NCBI GenBank assembly: GCA_903844155.1
Contig: CAIMSU010000233.1
Span: 1-64,000 of the forward strand
From: an uncultured Pseudomonadota bacterium
Lineage (GTDB): Bacteria > Myxococcota_A > UBA796 > SXON01
DNA length: 64,000 nt
Reading direction: 5' to 3'
Shown: positions 1,181 through 58,186 of the stretch, piece after piece
Layout of the letters: every line of letters begins with the position of its first letter
How positions within the stretch are numbered: the first letter of the stretch is position 1
Position numbers and translations under genes: made by a program
The notes under the pieces: generated by a model
The model's input: only the letters and a program-made list of their open reading frames with translations
Database searches by the model: none
Told to the model about the DNA's origin: nothing

Positions 1181-4100
1181 ATGAGCGTGCAGATCGTGCT
1201 CGGAAGGAGCCGATTCCGCCGTCGCGCTGCGATGGTGCGGAGCGTGCTGACCGGCACGGACGGGCAGGGCCGCCCCAACTTCACGTACCTCACCGACACG
1301 CTGCGAAAGAGCCAGTTGGTCCAGGATGAATTCGCGCGCTACCGTTCCGGCGCCACTTTTCTGCCCGAGGTGCACACCCTCGCAGCGCTGCTGACGGACC
1401 TGCACCGTCGGTTCGGGGATGGTCGGGCGCCCTGGCCAGACGCTGCCGTGGTGATGCAGTGCCGGTCGACCCGCCTGGCCTCCCCGGCCGCCTGGCCGTG
1501 GCTCGGCAGTCTCGACGACAACTGGACGACGGCGGCGGACCTGGCGCGCCTGTTTCAGAGCTGGCAGGAGGCGGATCGGCCCACGCTCGCCCCGATCGCG
1601 ACCGACCCCCGGCCGACGGAGCTTCGGGCGTACTTCGCGGCCGTCGACGCAACACTCGCCAACAACCCCGACTACGTGTGCGTCGCCGACCTCCTCACCG
1701 CCCTCATCCGGACACTTGAAGCCCTCCCGTACGACAACGAGCGCACGCCGCTCGGCGGATGGCTGCACCAGCCCCACGCGGTCGTCATCGACGACGTCCT
1801 GCACCCCAGCCGTCTGCGCACCCGCGCCCTGATCGCGCTTGCCACGGCGTGGAGCACGCTTGGCAAGCACGTTGTGTTCGGGTTGGAGTCCGGTCGGGAT
1901 CTCGGCGGCGCGGAAGCCGGGAGCTTCTTTGAGTACGACCGCCTCGACGACCCGGAGAGCGCGTTCTCGTTGCGTCCGTTTGAGGCGACATTGCAGTTTC
2001 GTCGTGCACTCTTTCACGGCATCATCGACCGCGGCCGGGGCGCGGTGGTGCACGTGGCCGGCCCCACCGGTGGCCTTCACGACGCCGTCGCGCCGGATGA
2101 TGACCTTGAACCAGCCGATCTCGCCGATCGCCTCTGGTGCCGGACGCCGTTGCCTCCGCCCGGACCAACCCCCTGGCTGGAGGTGGCATCATGGCCGGAT
2201 CGAAGCGCGGAGATCACCGCGATCGCCCTGGCGTTACGCGCTTCCCTGCTCGCCGGGGAGCGCGCCCAGGATCACTGGGTGGCAATCGCAGGGCTCCCCA
2301 CGTACTTGCCGGAATTGGCGAGAGTTTTCGACGAGCTGGGCGTGCCCTGGTCGACTGCCGCCGGGCTCCCCCTCACGGCCCGGCCGTGCGCGCGGCGCCT
2401 GCTCGCCCTCGCGCGTTGGGAGCGGCGGAATTGGCCGTTGGACGAGGTGATGGAGGCGCTACTGGCGGCGTCGGCGTGGCGCGACCGGACGCCGCAGCTC
2501 CAGGCGCTGTGGCGGGCCGCTCGGGAGCATGGCATCACGAGCGCCCGCGGGTTGCACTCGGTGGACTCGGCCGTCGAGGGTGGCGAAGGGGTCGCCGCGG
2601 ACGTCCGATCGTTCACCGAGGCGGTGGAGGGGCTCGACGGCGTACTCGACGCGCCAGAGTGGGCGAGACGGCTGATCGGCGCCGCAGTCCTGCTTGGGAT
2701 CGACGAGAACGCTGGCGACGACGCGGTCCTGGCGCTGGCCGTGGTGGGTGACGTGGCGCGGGCTGCGGCGGCGCTCGGCGGAGCACGCGAGGGGCGGGCG
2801 CTCGCGGATGCGTTGGAGGCGGCGCTCGGCGACACACTCGTGCGACCGGCGGGGGCGTCCGGGCCGGGCGGCGGGGGCGTCGAGGTGGTGGGCTTGCGCG
2901 ATCTGCGCGGGATCGACCCGCGCTGGCTCTGGATCGGGGGGTTGACGGCCGGAGAGTTCCCGCCTGCCCCCAGCGACGACTACCTCCTCGGTCGCGACTC
3001 ACGGCGTGCCCTCGGGCTGCCGGACGCGGCCGACGAAGCCCGGTACATCTTCGCCTCCGCGCTCCGGAACGCCGCGGACCACGCCCGTCGCGGGGGGCCA
3101 TTGCTGGCGCCCCGCAAACACCCAACGCGGAACTTCCTGAATTCACGCGAATGGGCATCGCAATGGCCCCCCAACGCGGCGTTCCCCGCACGTTCGGTGA
3201 CGGGCGCTGTACTCGGCGGCCGGCGGCGAACGTGGCTTTGGAACGCCGAAAAATCAGCGCCTACCCCGGCGCGAGGTGTGCCGAGCGCCGGGATCGGCGG
3301 GCCATTGCTGGCGCCTCGCAAACAAGCAACGCGGAACTTCCTGAATTCACGCGAATGGGCATCGCAATGGCCCCCCAACGCGGCGTTCCCCGCACGTTCG
3401 GTGACGGGCGCTGTACTCGGCGGCCGGCGGCGAACGTGGCTTTGGAACGCCGAAAAATCAGCGCCGGCCCCGGTGCGAGGTTCGCCGAGCGCCGGGATCG
3501 GCGGTCCCCCCCGCCTCACGCTCTCGTGGCCAGCGACGGTCGCCGGCAAAACGGTAGCGCGGTCCTCGCTACTCCTGGACCTGGTCGGACTCTGGCCCGT
3601 GCCATCGGAGTCGCCGCTGCGGGTGTACCGCGGCACCCCTGAGCACGCCCCGGTCGGGGCCCGAGGGGTCGATACGGCGCTCGGCGAGCGGTTCGCGGCG
3701 GGTGAACGCGTGCCACCGCCGGGCTCCGGTGAGGCGACCGGGCTCATCGGTCGGGGACGCATGCTCCGCGCGCGCCGGATCCCCGAGCCGGGCGTCTACG
3801 ACGGCATGCTGACGTCGCCGGTTCCGACCCGACCCCGGCTCGGCGCCACTGAGTTGGAAGGCTACCTGAAGTGCCCGATGACGCGGCTCTTCCGGCGCGT
3901 TCTAGCCCTGACCGCCGAGGAGGGCTACGACCGCGACGTCCCCCACCGCGCCTGGGGCGACCTCGTCCACCTCGTCCTCCATCAATTCGTCCGCGACCTG
4001 CTCCGCGATGGGGTCGGCCGAATTCGTCCCGAGCACCTCCCCGCCCTCTCCGCCCGGCTTGAGGCGCTCGCCCGCCGCCTTGCCACCCAGCCTCGCGCCG

Positions 4101-4819
4101 ATGGCACAGCGCCCGCCAGCCCCCTCCTGCGGCTCTCCCCTGCCCTCGCAGCACACCGCGTAGCCTCGCTGGTCGGCGGCCTCGTCGACGACGACGCGCC
4201 GGGCGTCCTCCACGCCTGGCTCCAATTCGAGGCGAACGACCCCGTCGAACACCACTTCGACGCCGTCGAGCGCCGCCTCGCGCCCGACGCGCTGACCGTC
4301 GGCGGCATGCCCATCGACGGCCAGATCGACCGCGTCGACCGCCTGCCAGACGGGCGCCCTTTCGTGCTCGACTACAAGACCGGCCTCCCCCCTTCCGCGC
4401 GCGACGTGCTCGCCGGGCTGCGCGTCCAGGGTCTGCTCTACCTGGACGCCGCCTCCGGCGAGGGAGCGACCGGGATCGCCGCGTACATGCAGGTTGGCAA
4501 GCCCGGCGAGGTACGACGGGACGGCTGGACCGGGGCGCCTGACGCGCTTGCCGCCCTCAAGCTGCGGAAGTCCGCGCCTCTTGACGACGCGTTCCGGGCC
4601 CGGATCGACGGTTACCTCGCGGAGAGCGTGGCGCGGCTGAAGGCCGGAGCCTTGCACACCACGCTCGCGACGGCTGCCGAGGCCGGGTGCGACTACTGCA
4701 GCTTCAAATACGCATGCAAGGTCGACCACGCGCGAAACGCTCGATTCGCGGAGGCGCTCCCGGCCCGGCCCGACGCCGCGCGGTACCAGGCGCCGCTCTC
4801 CGAGGCGGAGGAGTCATGA
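1181..4819 (+). CDS. addB: AddB-like helicase-nuclease subunit with Fe-S PD-(D/E)XK nuclease
   Basis: This 1212-residue protein has the AddB/RexB layout: a long inactivated-helicase body and a C-terminal PD-(D/E)XK nuclease. Nuclease residues are visible as D1050 (GQIDRVDR) and D1064/K1066 (LDYKTG). Cys898 (LKCPMT) with Cys1170, Cys1173 and Cys1179 (CDYCSFKYAC) gives the C...C-x2-C-x5-C set that holds the 4Fe-4S cluster of AddB nucleases. With AddA it would resect double-strand breaks for recombination. It overlaps the addA-like gene by ATGA, so translation is coupled. Residues about 638-774 are a tandem repeated insertion absent from the family; the flanks (ADHARR and RLTLSWPAT) read as if normally contiguous. 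The start ATG has no strong Shine-Dalgarno sequence. The family is clear, though it is diverged from Gram-positive AddB. Confidence 0.82.
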   Translation: MSVQIVLGRSRFRRRAAMVRSVLTGTDGQGRPNFTYLTDTLRKSQLVQDEFARYRSGATFLPEVHTLAALLTDLHRRFGDGRAPWPDAAVVMQCRSTRLASPAAWPWLGSLDDNWTTAADLARLFQSWQEADRPTLAPIATDPRPTELRAYFAAVDATLANNPDYVCVADLLTALIRTLEALPYDNERTPLGGWLHQPHAVVIDDVLHPSRLRTRALIALATAWSTLGKHVVFGLESGRDLGGAEAGSFFEYDRLDDPESAFSLRPFEATLQFRRALFHGIIDRGRGAVVHVAGPTGGLHDAVAPDDDLEPADLADRLWCRTPLPPPGPTPWLEVASWPDRSAEITAIALALRASLLAGERAQDHWVAIAGLPTYLPELARVFDELGVPWSTAAGLPLTARPCARRLLALARWERRNWPLDEVMEALLAASAWRDRTPQLQALWRAAREHGITSARGLHSVDSAVEGGEGVAADVRSFTEAVEGLDGVLDAPEWARRLIGAAVLLGIDENAGDDAVLALAVVGDVARAAAALGGAREGRALADALEAALGDTLVRPAGASGPGGGGVEVVGLRDLRGIDPRWLWIGGLTAGEFPPAPSDDYLLGRDSRRALGLPDAADEARYIFASALRNAADHARRGGPLLAPRKHPTRNFLNSREWASQWPPNAAFPARSVTGAVLGGRRRTWLWNAEKSAPTPARGVPSAGIGGPLLAPRKQATRNFLNSREWASQWPPNAAFPARSVTGAVLGGRRRTWLWNAEKSAPAPVRGSPSAGIGGPPRLTLSWPATVAGKTVARSSLLLDLVGLWPVPSESPLRVYRGTPEHAPVGARGVDTALGERFAAGERVPPPGSGEATGLIGRGRMLRARRIPEPGVYDGMLTSPVPTRPRLGATELEGYLKCPMTRLFRRVLALTAEEGYDRDVPHRAWGDLVHLVLHQFVRDLLRDGVGRIRPEHLPALSARLEALARRLATQPRADGTAPASPLLRLSPALAAHRVASLVGGLVDDDAPGVLHAWLQFEANDPVEHHFDAVERRLAPDALTVGGMPIDGQIDRVDRLPDGRPFVLDYKTGLPPSARDVLAGLRVQGLLYLDAASGEGATGIAAYMQVGKPGEVRRDGWTGAPDALAALKLRKSAPLDDAFRARIDGYLAESVARLKAGALHTTLATAAEAGCDYCSFKYACKVDHARNARFAEALPARPDAARYQAPLSEAEES
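3094..3501 (+). repeat. Tandem in-frame 204-bp insertion element inside addB-like gene
   Basis: Two copies of a 204-bp unit lie head to tail, at about 3094-3297 and 3298-3501. A core of about 137 bp (from acgcggaacttcctg to aaaaatcagcgcc) is identical in both, while the junction segments differ by several bases. Each copy is exactly 68 codons, so the reading frame of the host gene is kept (peptide contains NFLNSREWASQWPP and TWLWNAEKSAP). No terminal inverted repeats or transposase are visible. It behaves like a protein-coding insertion repeat, comparable in concept to Rickettsia palindromic elements. I found no third copy in this window. Confidence 0.85.
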
Positions 4820-30130: not shown

Positions 30131-32140
30131 ATGTCCACCCGAGCGGTCGGGATCGACCTCGGCACCACGTTCTCCGCCATCGCGCACGTCAACAAGTACG
30201 GTGTGCCGGAGATCCTGCACAACGCCGAGGGCGAGCGGATCACGCCGTCGGTGATCCTGTTCGAGGGCGACGAGGTGATCATCGGGACCTACGCCAAGCA
30301 ATCGGCGGTCGCGTACCCGGAGCAGGTGGTCGAGTTCATCAAGCGCCACATGGGCGACGAAGACTACCAGTTCGAGTACCGCGGCGAGTCCTACACGCCC
30401 GAGCGACTGTCGGGCTTCATCCTTGCGAAGTTGAAGCACGACGCCGAGCTGCGGCTCGGGCACCGGATCGATCAGGCCGTCATCACCGTTCCCGCCTACT
30501 TTGGCGACAAGCAACGCCGCGCGACGATCCGGGCCGGCGAATACGCGGGCTTGAAGGTCCTCTCCCTGCTGAACGAGCCGACGGCGGCGGCGTTTGCGTA
30601 CGGCCTCTCGAACATGGGCGAGCGCAAAAAGGTGCTCGTCTACGACCTTGGCGGCGGCACGTTCGACGTGTCCATCGTCGAGATCGCGGGGCGAGACATC
30701 AGCGTCATCGCCACTACCGGCGATCACCTGCTTGGCGGCAAGGAGTGGGACGACGCGTTGATCGAGTTTGCCGCGGAGCAATTCAAGGCCCGCCACAACC
30801 TCGACCCGCTGGACGACCTCGCGGCGTACCATGACCTGCGGGCCAAGGCGACCAGCGCCAAGCTCTCGCTCTCCAAGCGGCCCAAGGTCAACCTGTTCTA
30901 CGACTTCAAGGGGAAGATCCTGCGGTTGGAGCTGACCCGGGAGAAGTTTGAGGATCTCACGGCTGGCCTGCTCGCCCGGTGCGAAGCGCTGACCCGCGAT
31001 GTGCTGGAGGATGCCAAGCTCACCCCCAACGACATCGACACCGTCGTGCTCGCAGGCGGGTCCACGCGCATGCCGATGGTGCGCGAGATGATCAAGAAGG
31101 TGTTCGGGCGCGACGCCGCGACGGACATCAACCCGGATGAGTGCGTTGCGCTCGGCGCAGCGCTGACGGCCGCGATCGAGGCCAGCCGTGTGTCTGGCGA
31201 GGCCCCGCCCGTCGACATCCGAACGCACGACGTCACGTCGCACTCCCTCGGCATGGTCGTCTACCGCGACGGAAAGCTCTACAACTCCAAGATCATCGAG
31301 CGGAACTCGCGAATCCCCTGCGAGCGTACGCGCGACGACTATGTGACCACGCACGATGGTCAGTCCACCATGGACCTCTGGCTCGTACAGGGCGAGAACG
31401 TCGATCCCCTGGAGTGCGCGGTCCTTGGTCACTTCGAATTCTACGGAATCCCGATTCGCTCCGCGGGAAAGTCCCGTTTGTCCGTGACCTTTCGCTACAA
31501 TGCGAACGGCATCGTCGAGGTCGAGTCCATGGATCTCGACAGCGGGCAGACCCTGGCCCACCGCCTCGCCGCAGGCTCCGTCACCCTCGACGATCTGGCC
31601 CGGAACCGGGCGCCGATGAGCGTCGTGCTGTTGGTGGACTGTTCGGGCTCGATGTACGGCGCGAACATCGAAGAGGCGCGCAAGGCAGCGCTCTCCTTCG
31701 TCGAACATTCGCTTGGTCCGAACAGGCAGATCGCGGTCATCGCCTTTCCCGGTGGCGTCGTTTGCCCGCTGACGGGCGACGGGGCGAAGCTGGACGCCGC
31801 GATTCGCGGGCTCACCCCGATCGGGTCCACGCCGCTCGCCGAGGGCTTGCTCGCCGCCCGGGAGATGATGAAGAACCGGGCGGGCGTCCAACGGATCTAC
31901 ATGGTCCTCACGGACGGGCACCCGGACGACCCGGATGCCGCAGTGGCCGAGGTCAACCGCATTCGGACCTCCGGCGGTCGCATCATCACCATCGGCGTCG
32001 GCAACCAGGTGCGGCCCGACTTCCTGAAGAGCCTCGCTTCCCGCGCCGAAGACTTCCACTTCTGCAACGAGTCGGTCGAACTGCAGGGCACGTTCATCAA
32101 CCTCGCAACCGAGCTCACGGGAGGCCAAAATGGCGGATGA
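30131..32140 (+). CDS. Hsp70 (DnaK-like) fused to a von Willebrand factor A domain
   Basis: The protein has 669 residues. The ATPase domain (about 1-360) is complete: phosphate-1 IDLGTTFSAIAHV, VITVPAYFG, NEPTAAAFAYGL, phosphate-2 YDLGGGTFDVSIVE and adenosine motif VLAGGSTRMPMV. A beta-sandwich substrate domain follows (about 375-480, SHSLGMVVYRDGKL, IPCERTRDDYVT). Where DnaK has its helical lid, a VWA domain runs from about 496 to 660, with MIDAS residues D503-C-S505-G-S507, a downstream STPLAEG Thr and LTDGHPDD. The fusion suggests that metal-dependent adhesion to a partner replaces or controls lid closure. It is the first gene of a four-gene unit and overlaps the GrpE gene by 11 bp. Confidence 0.92.
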   Translation: MSTRAVGIDLGTTFSAIAHVNKYGVPEILHNAEGERITPSVILFEGDEVIIGTYAKQSAVAYPEQVVEFIKRHMGDEDYQFEYRGESYTPERLSGFILAKLKHDAELRLGHRIDQAVITVPAYFGDKQRRATIRAGEYAGLKVLSLLNEPTAAAFAYGLSNMGERKKVLVYDLGGGTFDVSIVEIAGRDISVIATTGDHLLGGKEWDDALIEFAAEQFKARHNLDPLDDLAAYHDLRAKATSAKLSLSKRPKVNLFYDFKGKILRLELTREKFEDLTAGLLARCEALTRDVLEDAKLTPNDIDTVVLAGGSTRMPMVREMIKKVFGRDAATDINPDECVALGAALTAAIEASRVSGEAPPVDIRTHDVTSHSLGMVVYRDGKLYNSKIIERNSRIPCERTRDDYVTTHDGQSTMDLWLVQGENVDPLECAVLGHFEFYGIPIRSAGKSRLSVTFRYNANGIVEVESMDLDSGQTLAHRLAAGSVTLDDLARNRAPMSVVLLVDCSGSMYGANIEEARKAALSFVEHSLGPNRQIAVIAFPGGVVCPLTGDGAKLDAAIRGLTPIGSTPLAEGLLAAREMMKNRAGVQRIYMVLTDGHPDDPDAAVAEVNRIRTSGGRIITIGVGNQVRPDFLKSLASRAEDFHFCNESVELQGTFINLATELTGGQNGG

Positions 32141-32734: not shown

Positions 32735-34363
32735 ATGGCCGACGACGGGATCATTCTGGGCATCGACCTCGGGACGACGTTCTCGGCGATGGGCTATGTG
32801 GATCCCTTCGGCAAGCCGTTGATCCTGCCCAACGGCGAAGGCCAGCGCACCACCGCGTCGGTCATCCACTTCTACGATCGCGATGCCTGCGTGGTCGGCG
32901 AGGAAGCGGTCAAGATGGTGGTCGTCGACGCGCCGAACGTGGTCCGGTTCATCAAGCGGCACATGGGCGAGGAGGGCTACCAGTTGGAGCTTTTCGGACG
33001 AACCTATGGTCCGCAGGAGCTGTCGTCGTTCATCCTTCGGAAGTTGAAGGACGACGCCGAGGAGGCGCTGGGGTTCGAGGTCAAGGACGCCGTCATCACG
33101 GTGCCGGCGTACTTCAACAGCGCCCAGCGCGGGGCGACGGCGGAGGCGGGCGCGTTGGCGGGGTTCAACGTGCTCTCCATCATCAACGAGCCGACGGCCG
33201 CGGCGATCGCGTACGGCGTCGAGCGGATCGGGGGCGACCGCCACTTGATGGTTTTTGACCTTGGCGGCGGCACTTTTGACGTCACCGTGATGGAGATCCG
33301 CGGGACGACGCTGCGGACGATAGCGACAGACGGCAACGCGGAGCTTGGCGGCAAGGACTGGGACGATCGGCTCCTGAACTACGTCGCCGACCAGTTCAGC
33401 CAGAAGTTCGGCCTGGACCCGCGCGACGACGCGCAGACCTACCAGGAGCTCTACGAGCGCTGTCTGCACGCCAAGATCTCGCTGTCCTCCAAGCCCCGCG
33501 CGGTCATCCCCGTGAATTTCCGCGGACATCGCACGGTTGTGCCGGTCGTCCGCGAGGAGTTTGAGAACATCACGCGGGACCTGCTCGGGCAGTGCGCCGA
33601 CACGTGCGCGCTCGTGCTCGAGAAGGCCAAGATGGGCTGGGCCGACATCGACGATGTGCTGCTCGCCGGCGGATCGACGCGGATGCCCGCGGTCCAGGAG
33701 ATGCTGCGTCGGCTTTCGGGCCGCGCCCCCGTGGCCGGGGTGAATCCGGACGAGTGCGTGGCCCTTGGCGCAGCGCTCGCCGCGATCTTCCGGCATCAAC
33801 CCAAGCATCCGGCCATCCAGAATTGGCGCTCCACGCTCGCGCGCAAGGCCCAGAAGGCCGCCGCGGGCGCGAACGAACAGGGCTCGACTGCGCTGATCGA
33901 GCAGGACATCCAGCCCGGCCCAGGTGGGACCTTGCCGGGCGTTCGGATCGCGGACGTCGCCAGCCACCCGCTTGGCATCGTCGTGCTGGACGCCCAGCTC
34001 AACGAGCGGATCGTCACGCTCATCCCCGAGTCGACCCCCCTCCCCTGCGAGAAGCGCGGGCGCTTTGCCTATGCCTACGACGACATGACCGCGGTGCGCG
34101 TGGAGGTGACGGAGGGCGTGGGCGCGAGTCGCGACGAGGTCACGGTGATCGGTGAGGTCATCCTCGACAATCTGCCGCCCCGCCATCGTGGGACGCCCAT
34201 CGAGGTGGTCTACCGGTACACGGTGAACCAGATCCTCGAGGTGGACGTGACCGACATCGAGACGCGCGTCTCCCACCGCGCCCGGATCGTGCTCAAAGGC
34301 GCGCTCTCGTCCGAGGGGTACGATGAAGCGCGAAGGCGCGTGGCGGCCGCTACGGTCCACTGA
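32735..34363 (+). CDS. Second, lidless Hsp70
   Basis: This 542-residue DnaK-like protein has a full ATPase domain: GIDLGTTFSAMGYV, VITVPAYFNSAQRGAT, NEPTAAAIAYGV, FDLGGGTFDVTVME, LAGGSTRMPAVQEML and NPDECVALGAAL. The region 345-400 is an Ala/Lys/Gln-rich insert (ARKAQKAAAGANEQG) where DnaK has its short interdomain linker; no DVLLLDVTPLS-type linker is seen. A short substrate-binding sandwich follows (ASHPLGIVVLDAQ, IPCEK-like LPCEKRGRFAYAYDD, VYRYTVNQILEVDVTD). The helical lid is missing; the protein ends soon after the sandwich. It starts eight bases after the GrpE stop. Confidence 0.9.
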   Translation: MADDGIILGIDLGTTFSAMGYVDPFGKPLILPNGEGQRTTASVIHFYDRDACVVGEEAVKMVVVDAPNVVRFIKRHMGEEGYQLELFGRTYGPQELSSFILRKLKDDAEEALGFEVKDAVITVPAYFNSAQRGATAEAGALAGFNVLSIINEPTAAAIAYGVERIGGDRHLMVFDLGGGTFDVTVMEIRGTTLRTIATDGNAELGGKDWDDRLLNYVADQFSQKFGLDPRDDAQTYQELYERCLHAKISLSSKPRAVIPVNFRGHRTVVPVVREEFENITRDLLGQCADTCALVLEKAKMGWADIDDVLLAGGSTRMPAVQEMLRRLSGRAPVAGVNPDECVALGAALAAIFRHQPKHPAIQNWRSTLARKAQKAAAGANEQGSTALIEQDIQPGPGGTLPGVRIADVASHPLGIVVLDAQLNERIVTLIPESTPLPCEKRGRFAYAYDDMTAVRVEVTEGVGASRDEVTVIGEVILDNLPPRHRGTPIEVVYRYTVNQILEVDVTDIETRVSHRARIVLKGALSSEGYDEARRRVAAATVH

Positions 34364-57292: not shown

Positions 57293-58186
57293 ATGAGCTA
57301 TCCTCGCAACAGCATGATTCTGGGTCCTGGACCCTTCAAGGCCAAGGATCTGCCCAGCGGCGCTGAGTACGAGCTCGACAACGGCCACCCGATCCACTGT
57401 CTGCCCACGCGGCAGCGCGGCGGTCGCGCGCAAGCGATCGGCGCTGCGGTGATCCGCACGGACCCGCTCGTTCAGTCCTGTGGCGTCGAGATCGGCTTTG
57501 AGCTCGATGAGGGCACTGTGCGCGCCCCGGACGTGTCGGTGACGACCAGCGCCACGGAGGATGGTTGGGCGACCACGGCACCGCCCCTCGCCATCGAGTA
57601 CGCCGACACCGGGCAGGACGAGAACGAACTGCAGCACAAGATCGAACAACTTCTTCGCGCCGGGTCGCGCGAGATCTGGGTCGTGCGCCTCCACAAGATC
57701 CGGCGGGTGGAGGTCTACACGCTCGGCGCCGATGGACACGTGGCGAGGCGAGTCGCGCACGCGAGCGAGGAGCTCGCCCTGCCTGGCGTTCTCGGGCGTC
57801 CGGTCCCCGTCGCCGCCCTGTTCGATCCGCAGGCTGCGGACCTTCACACGTTTCACAACCTGCTCGCCCGGTACGGCTACGAGCACCCGGAGCAGGCGCG
57901 CGAAGAAGGCCGTGAAGAAGGCCGCGAAGAAGGCCGCGAAGAAGGCCGCGAAGAAGGCCGCGAAGAAGGCCGCGAAGAAGGCCGCGAAGAAGGCCGCGAA
58001 GAAGGGCGGGAGGAGGGGCGTGAAGAGGGGCGCACGGCGGCGCGAATCGAGGCGTTGGTCGGTGTCGGCGTCACCGTCGCGCCGGAAGATCACGCCTTGA
58101 TCGCCAGCATGACGCCTGACGCGATGAGCGAGGTGCTGAAACGCGCGTTCGCCAGCCCCGGGCGCGCCCTTCGCGACCTGGTGTGA
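57293..58186 (+). CDS. Uma2-type PD-(D/E)XK nuclease-like protein with (REEG)11 tail
   Basis: This 297-residue protein has the Uma2/DUF820 core: LPSGAEYELDNGHPIHCLP, GTVRAPDVSVTTS (Asp), PPLAIEYADTG (Glu), KIEQLLRAGSREIWVVRLHKIRRVEVYT (Lys and tail strand). After about residue 200 it has eleven REEG tetrapeptides, then a helical end (ARIEALVGVGVTVAPEDHALI). The core is a predicted endonuclease fold; the activity of Uma2 proteins is not settled. The REEG run would be a highly charged helix. The ATG at 57293 is supported by the family start. Confidence 0.82.
   Translation: MSYPRNSMILGPGPFKAKDLPSGAEYELDNGHPIHCLPTRQRGGRAQAIGAAVIRTDPLVQSCGVEIGFELDEGTVRAPDVSVTTSATEDGWATTAPPLAIEYADTGQDENELQHKIEQLLRAGSREIWVVRLHKIRRVEVYTLGADGHVARRVAHASEELALPGVLGRPVPVAALFDPQAADLHTFHNLLARYGYEHPEQAREEGREEGREEGREEGREEGREEGREEGREEGREEGREEGREEGRTAARIEALVGVGVTVAPEDHALIASMTPDAMSEVLKRAFASPGRALRDLV
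57899..58030 (+). repeat. 12-bp microsatellite-like repeat, 11 units
   Basis: Eleven 12-bp units (mostly cgcgaagaaggc) encode Arg-Glu-Glu-Gly. The central seven are identical; the first and last units vary at third codon positions. Unit length keeps the frame, so copy number can change without breaking the gene. Confidence 0.95.

Follow-up and report, generated by a model that had tools for sequence, protein, structure and literature searches.

Tandem in-frame copies of a dispersed, probably mobile three-hairpin element in an AddB-like gene

The AddB-like gene in the 64,000-nt stretch of DNA analysed here (the window) contains a segment that probably represents a tandem pair formed by one non-autonomous mobile element, which would act through a folded strand and be moved by an enzyme supplied in trans. 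The repeat unit is dispersed in the host genome, with sharp ends and mostly intergenic placement, it is patchily distributed among genomes, and AddB in relatives is uninterrupted.

Repeat detection in the window returned two 204-nt copies, at 3082-3285 and 3286-3489, that are 94% identical. The preliminary description had reported two near-identical in-frame units with an identical core of 137 bp. The units indeed agree at 191 of 204 positions, with a period of 204 nt, in a host frame (1181-4819) that stays open across both; the long exact core is present as well, and its measured length is 139 nt. Alignment of about 46 genomic copies moved the unit boundaries to 3092-3504, with conservation among the copies beginning at GGGGGGCCA and stopping at ...ATCGGCGG, and a structured model built from 16 copies of the host genome (R2) matches each unit with 213 bits. 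The period is 204 nt although the unit is 209 nt long, because the two units overlap by GGCGG (3296-3300). The corresponding features are:

1181..4819, plus strand: AddB-like host gene, 1212 aa (open reading frame, C-terminal PDDEXK_1, homologues)
3092..3300, plus strand: element unit 1, 209 nt including the shared GGxGG ends (R2, copy alignments)
3296..3504, plus strand: element unit 2, with GGCGG in common with unit 1 (R2)
3123..3261, plus strand: 139-nt identical stretch, the same as 3327-3465 of unit 2

The AddB unit recurs at at least 40 further sites in the genome (E < 1e-9), so the tandem repeat is far beyond chance, and its reality as an in-frame repeat within the AddB-like gene is confirmed.

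The window holds other repeats. Two 138-bp tandem copies at 1-276, 99% identical, encode aspartate-rich MopE-like repeats in a minus-strand open reading frame that continues beyond the window edge, and a 12-bp tandem array at 57863-58054 encodes REEGREEG repeats. Paralogous stretches at 30407-30785 and 33020-33398, 2613 nt apart and about 72% identical, look like adjacent Hsp70 (DnaK-like) genes.

The product of the host gene has a C-terminal PDDEXK_1 nuclease domain and weak matches to AddB/RexB, and its TGA overlaps the ATG of an AddA-like gene at 4816 (ATGA). A contig scan with AddB as the query gave no match. AddB homologues encoded in other genera within the family and order align unbroken to residues 2-632 and 778-1211 of the host protein; their junction reads RNA-xxxx-LTLSWP where the host protein has about 140 additional residues. 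In eight relatives (G006, G009-G013, G017 and G023) a short loop of 4-6 residues stands opposite about 145 here. The segment is missing from all homologues examined across the junction, which bears out the earlier expectation that the family sequence is continuous where the units sit. Because the homologues align across the junction without a break, the ancestral AddB gene is concluded to have lacked the segment. The insertion point is a loop that is variable among AddB relatives too, and the element may have landed in this surface loop, immediately before the conserved LTLSWP strand, after which the second unit would have been produced by local duplication or conversion. Indeed, the AddB units carry variants absent from the other aligned copies, and since those of the second unit are missing elsewhere, it likely arose at the locus. 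The recent duplication or gene conversion proposed beforehand thus fits the near-identity of the AddB pair, and does not extend to several other dimers, which combine different subtypes. The net length inserted is divisible by three and the frame of the element is stop-free, which would let the gene survive; the AddB protein is accordingly expected to carry about 138 inserted residues.

A DNA search of the host genome (G000; 8.13 Mb in 375 contigs, with 4.98% contamination) gave 45-52 matches, and a profile built from 35 copies gave at least 132 at E up to 1e-3, a lower bound with the best 150 candidates scored. The unit is therefore not confined to AddB, whereas a lack of other genomic copies had been named as fatal to an element family, and the mobile or templated origin first suggested gains support from these matches together with the homologues that lack the segment. 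Outside the host, R2 detected 47 copies in the congener G004, 15 in G010, which belongs to another genus, and 1 in G014; a further structured model, R3, detected 20 in G010 and the same number, 1, in G014, where the copy is a fragment. Of 63 genomes of the order, 4 matched R3, and a sample of 379 across the phylum yielded the same 4, with none in the other 375; the four bearers fall into two genera of one family. Neither R2 nor R3 found the element in G001-G003, which belong to the host's own genus, and a DNA match in G033 was just 28 nt long and was not confirmed by R3. An exact-pattern DNA scan of 84,980 species, which is a strict search, returned 38 contigs, of which 33 come from the G004 MAG; the remaining five had no profile match and were taken as chance. 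Such a patchy distribution, with many copies in genomes that do have the element, is consistent with mobility.

Copies in the host genome occur singly or as dimers whose period is close to 204 (at C48, C159, C50 and C344, among others), and this period is also found in dimers outside genes. Several dimers are made of two units of different subtypes, and because these share the period, it is a property of the element and not of coding selection on AddB. Dozens of host contigs start or end inside the element, so that copy counts are lower bounds, and the element is a main cause of breaks in this assembly. The location of the repeat at many contig ends, the 375-contig assembly and its contamination would all suit an artefact of assembly or binning, but the element is also present in the independent assemblies G004, G010 and G014, and the AddB units share variants unseen in the other aligned copies while the frame is intact. 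An artefact is therefore largely refuted, and we give it a negligible probability.

Each full copy is 204-210 nt long and has an identical layout of three hairpins, located in the AddB units as follows:

3092..3172, plus strand: hairpin H1 of unit 1, 14-bp stem 3092-3105/3159-3172 with a 53-nt loop (unit 2, 3296-3376)
3177..3248, plus strand: hairpin H2 of unit 1, 10 bp plus 20 bp (unit 2, 3381-3452)
3258..3299, plus strand: hairpin H3 of unit 1, 15 bp plus 2 bp (unit 2, 3462-3503)

Single copies are predicted to fold into the three hairpins with -108 to -145 kcal/mol, with folding z values of -4.9 (second AddB unit) and -10.4 (the copy on C327). In 16 copies of the host genome 92.5% of cells are paired, as opposed to 30-46% with slid partners. 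Two-sided compensatory changes are present in 39 of the 61 base pairs of an alignment from three genomes (A5), with 270 compensatory cells against 89.8±7.2 in shuffled and 34-49 in slid controls, an alignment that was fitted to the structure and so favours it; an alignment of host-genome copies only and an unconstrained consensus fold agree with the A5 structure. Compensatory change preserves the fold in three genomes, which belong to two genera. The loop motifs GCGCTSSGCAAACA, CTGAAAtcg and GCGAGgt..GCCGAGCG recur in G004 and some of them in G010, and the H1-loop motif GCGCTSSGCAAACA...CTGAAAtcg is conserved across genera, as are the ends. The plus-strand fold is the stabler one in 40 of 40 copies in G000, 14 of 17 in G004 and 5 of 7 in G010, counts of related copies that are not independent trials, and this suggests that the plus strand is the working form. 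A cmscan against Rfam 15 of the window copies and six further loci, the long form included, gave nothing near any gathering threshold, and a tRNA scan of the copies gave nothing. At three loci (C166:16162, C344:35146 and C73:13466) one H2 hairpin joins arms of different subtypes with 3-4 pairs broken, a result of either recombination between copies or assembly chimeras.

Strong compensatory base-pair change, conserved loop motifs and a more stable plus-strand fold are also what a multi-copy functional ncRNA or cis-regulatory element would display, if it were selected at each locus and neither selfish nor mobile. However, the relation to neighbouring genes is inconstant (12 divergent, 9 and 6 tandem, and 6 convergent), in-gene copies occur in both orientations, the same-genus genomes G001-G003 yielded none, and subtype mosaics exist alongside the heterogeneous dimers. 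We consider this explanation distinctly unlikely.

The 44 copies examined in three genomes are in their majority intergenic, several of them only a few bases from a stop codon. Intact reading frames are found at two of the 44 loci: the AddB-like gene, where the element is in sense, and an ABC exporter of G004, where it is antisense and read in a different frame. In the exporter the element occupies the linker between the membrane and ATPase domains, with PF00664 and PF00005 flanking it. A candidate gene interruption on C73 was ruled out, as the gene upstream terminates precisely at the element boundary. Stop codons are absent from frame +0 in 32 of 40 full copies, from +2 in 23, from -0 in 35 and from -1 in 35, and because a length of 204n is divisible by three and these frames are often stop-free, a copy can survive in frame without any particular coding design. 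Entropy is practically the same at all three codon positions (0.497/0.487/0.507 bits). One possible hypothesis for these in-gene copies is a selfish repeat of the Rickettsia palindromic element (RPE) type, whose spread within genes relies on coding for a tolerated peptide. In-frame insertion into a loop of one protein and a linker of another, unrelated one, and the stop-free state of more than half of the copies in +0, +2, -0 and -1 would agree with this, but the reading frame is intact at so few loci, codon periodicity is lacking, and three hairpins in 204-210 nt differ from one palindrome of 105-146 bp (PMC2229807), which makes such a dependence quite improbable.

At the DNA level, a comparison with the congener G003 for empty sites aligned only conserved genes, at about 70% identity. 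No nucleotide-level pre-insertion site is available because the congeners are too diverged, and mobilisation, which we infer, rests for this reason on dispersal, patchiness and the empty sites seen at the protein level. The ends of the element, GGGGGGCCA... and ...ATCGGCGG, are not mutually inverted, so terminal inverted repeats are lacking. Over 21 loci we found no target duplication, the mean longest direct match being 4.14 nt compared with 4.03±0.34 nt in shuffled pairs, which leaves room for a 1-nt C. A flanking C is present in 26 of 35 cases at -1 and in 28 of 35 at +1 (G000 and G004 pooled), and no fixed tetranucleotide target lies beside the copies.

Several copies are longer, with an additional structured module of about 125 nt in the H3 loop that brings the total to 328-333 nt; the longer forms measure about 330 and 465 nt. 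Two long copies bear a further nested hairpin module, which also stands solitary at C199. The extra modules hold no recognisable gene, including any for a transposase. A search with the H3 module found it in about 30 places, some of them module-only: it lacks H1 and H2 at C179:2545-2658 and on C57, C320, C317 and C313, begins directly after the TGA of a gene at C179, and is cut by contig ends at most of the others. The nested module is a distinct hairpin repeat of about 150 nt (GGTCAGC...GCTGACCC; C199:16972-17123, C204:4830-5100 and C259:82275-82527), alone at C199 and within long element copies at the other two loci. Short, non-coding, numerous copies with longer forms recall a classical MITE, an internal-deletion remnant of a DDE-type IS that is moved by its transposase, ends in inverted repeats and duplicates its target. 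Against this, the ends are defined without inverted repeats, target duplication is missing, the element is G+C rich (0.67-0.73), and the extra modules offer no transposase; the first two points in particular argue against a DDE-type MITE, which we rate as highly improbable.

For the preferred reading, a mobile element moved in trans, the supplied enzyme would recognise a folded single strand, which could be ssDNA, the form used in IS200/IS605-type transposition, or else an RNA copy, and the element would insert beside a short C/G-rich target without duplicating it. The fold and the missing target duplication are the grounds for this putative single-strand step, and in the comparison with IS200/IS605-derived elements the favoured C at -1 and +1 goes together with the lack of a fixed tetranucleotide. 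The host genome has Y1 transposase and reverse transcriptase genes. One Y1 gene exceeds the cut-off, with no element copy in its 1.5-kb flanks. Reverse transcriptase genes are found at C62:1114-1707 and C314:1713-2801, and by eye one has DGR-like motifs and one is retron-RT-like; no element copy lies beside either. By Pfam, G004 has neither kind of gene, and both were rejected as partners of the element, being non-adjacent in G000 and absent from G004. Open reading frames between neighbouring copies appear by eye to be ordinary genes, with no transposase recognised. A bolder and rather unlikely scheme is that the element is a bacterial counterpart of a SINE: a transcribed three-hairpin RNA that would move through an RNA or ssDNA intermediate, recruit modules into H3 and join host proteins in frame.

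In-frame invasion of protein genes is best known from Rickettsia, and to our knowledge no such structured repeat is known in this bacterial group. The element adds an interspersed-repeat family defined by a three-hairpin fold, with compensatory evidence across genera, and extends in-frame gene invasion to a large, G+C-rich genome, where it affects a DNA-repair nuclease subunit and, in G004, a transporter. With at least 100 copies, dimers and nested forms, it offers a good system for asking what moves structured repeats that have no recognisable transposase. The earlier statement that no element of this kind has been named for the group agrees with the open-licence papers searched, in which no description of it was found. 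The likeness to Rickettsia protein-coding repeats drawn at the same time holds for in-frame insertion; it does not hold for coding nature, given flat codon entropy, conserved base pairing and mostly intergenic copies. RPE (Ogata et al. 2000; PMC2229807, PMC10969869) are long stem-loops of 105-146 bp with terminal inverted repeats, and almost half of the R. conorii copies lie in genes. Like RPE, the element is a small structured multi-copy repeat found between genes and in frame in conserved protein genes that stay open (AddB and the exporter), whereas it is 204-210 nt long, has three separate hairpins and no terminal inverted repeats, is rarely genic, belongs to another lineage and encodes no conserved peptide, with no codon-position signal and different frames in the two proteins. 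Bacterial MITEs (Correia/NEMIS, ERIC, RUP) are similarly short, non-autonomous and without an enzyme of their own, but they are as a rule rich in A+T, end in inverted repeats and are flanked by target duplications (PMC2229807), all three of which are lacking here. REP sequences are 20-40 bp long, many with a GTAG or CGTC tag at one end, and their RAYT are Y1 transposases (PMC3733652); REP/BIME are likewise many-copy, mainly extragenic hairpin repeats, whereas the unit here is 204-210 nt, no copies flank the Y1 gene, and no such gene was detected in G004. BOX of Streptococcus pneumoniae, with boxA-boxB(n)-boxC modules and IS-like terminal inverted repeats, is also dispersed and modular, is extensively structured, comes in short and long forms and is inferred to be mobilised (PMC3049150), but BOX varies by tandem boxB, whereas the element nests modules in the H3 loop, and unlike BOX as described it has no terminal inverted repeats, nor was a related IS found. 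Lacking defining features of RPE, MITE, REP and BOX, this apparently undescribed family combines an RPE-like effect on proteins with BOX-like modularity.
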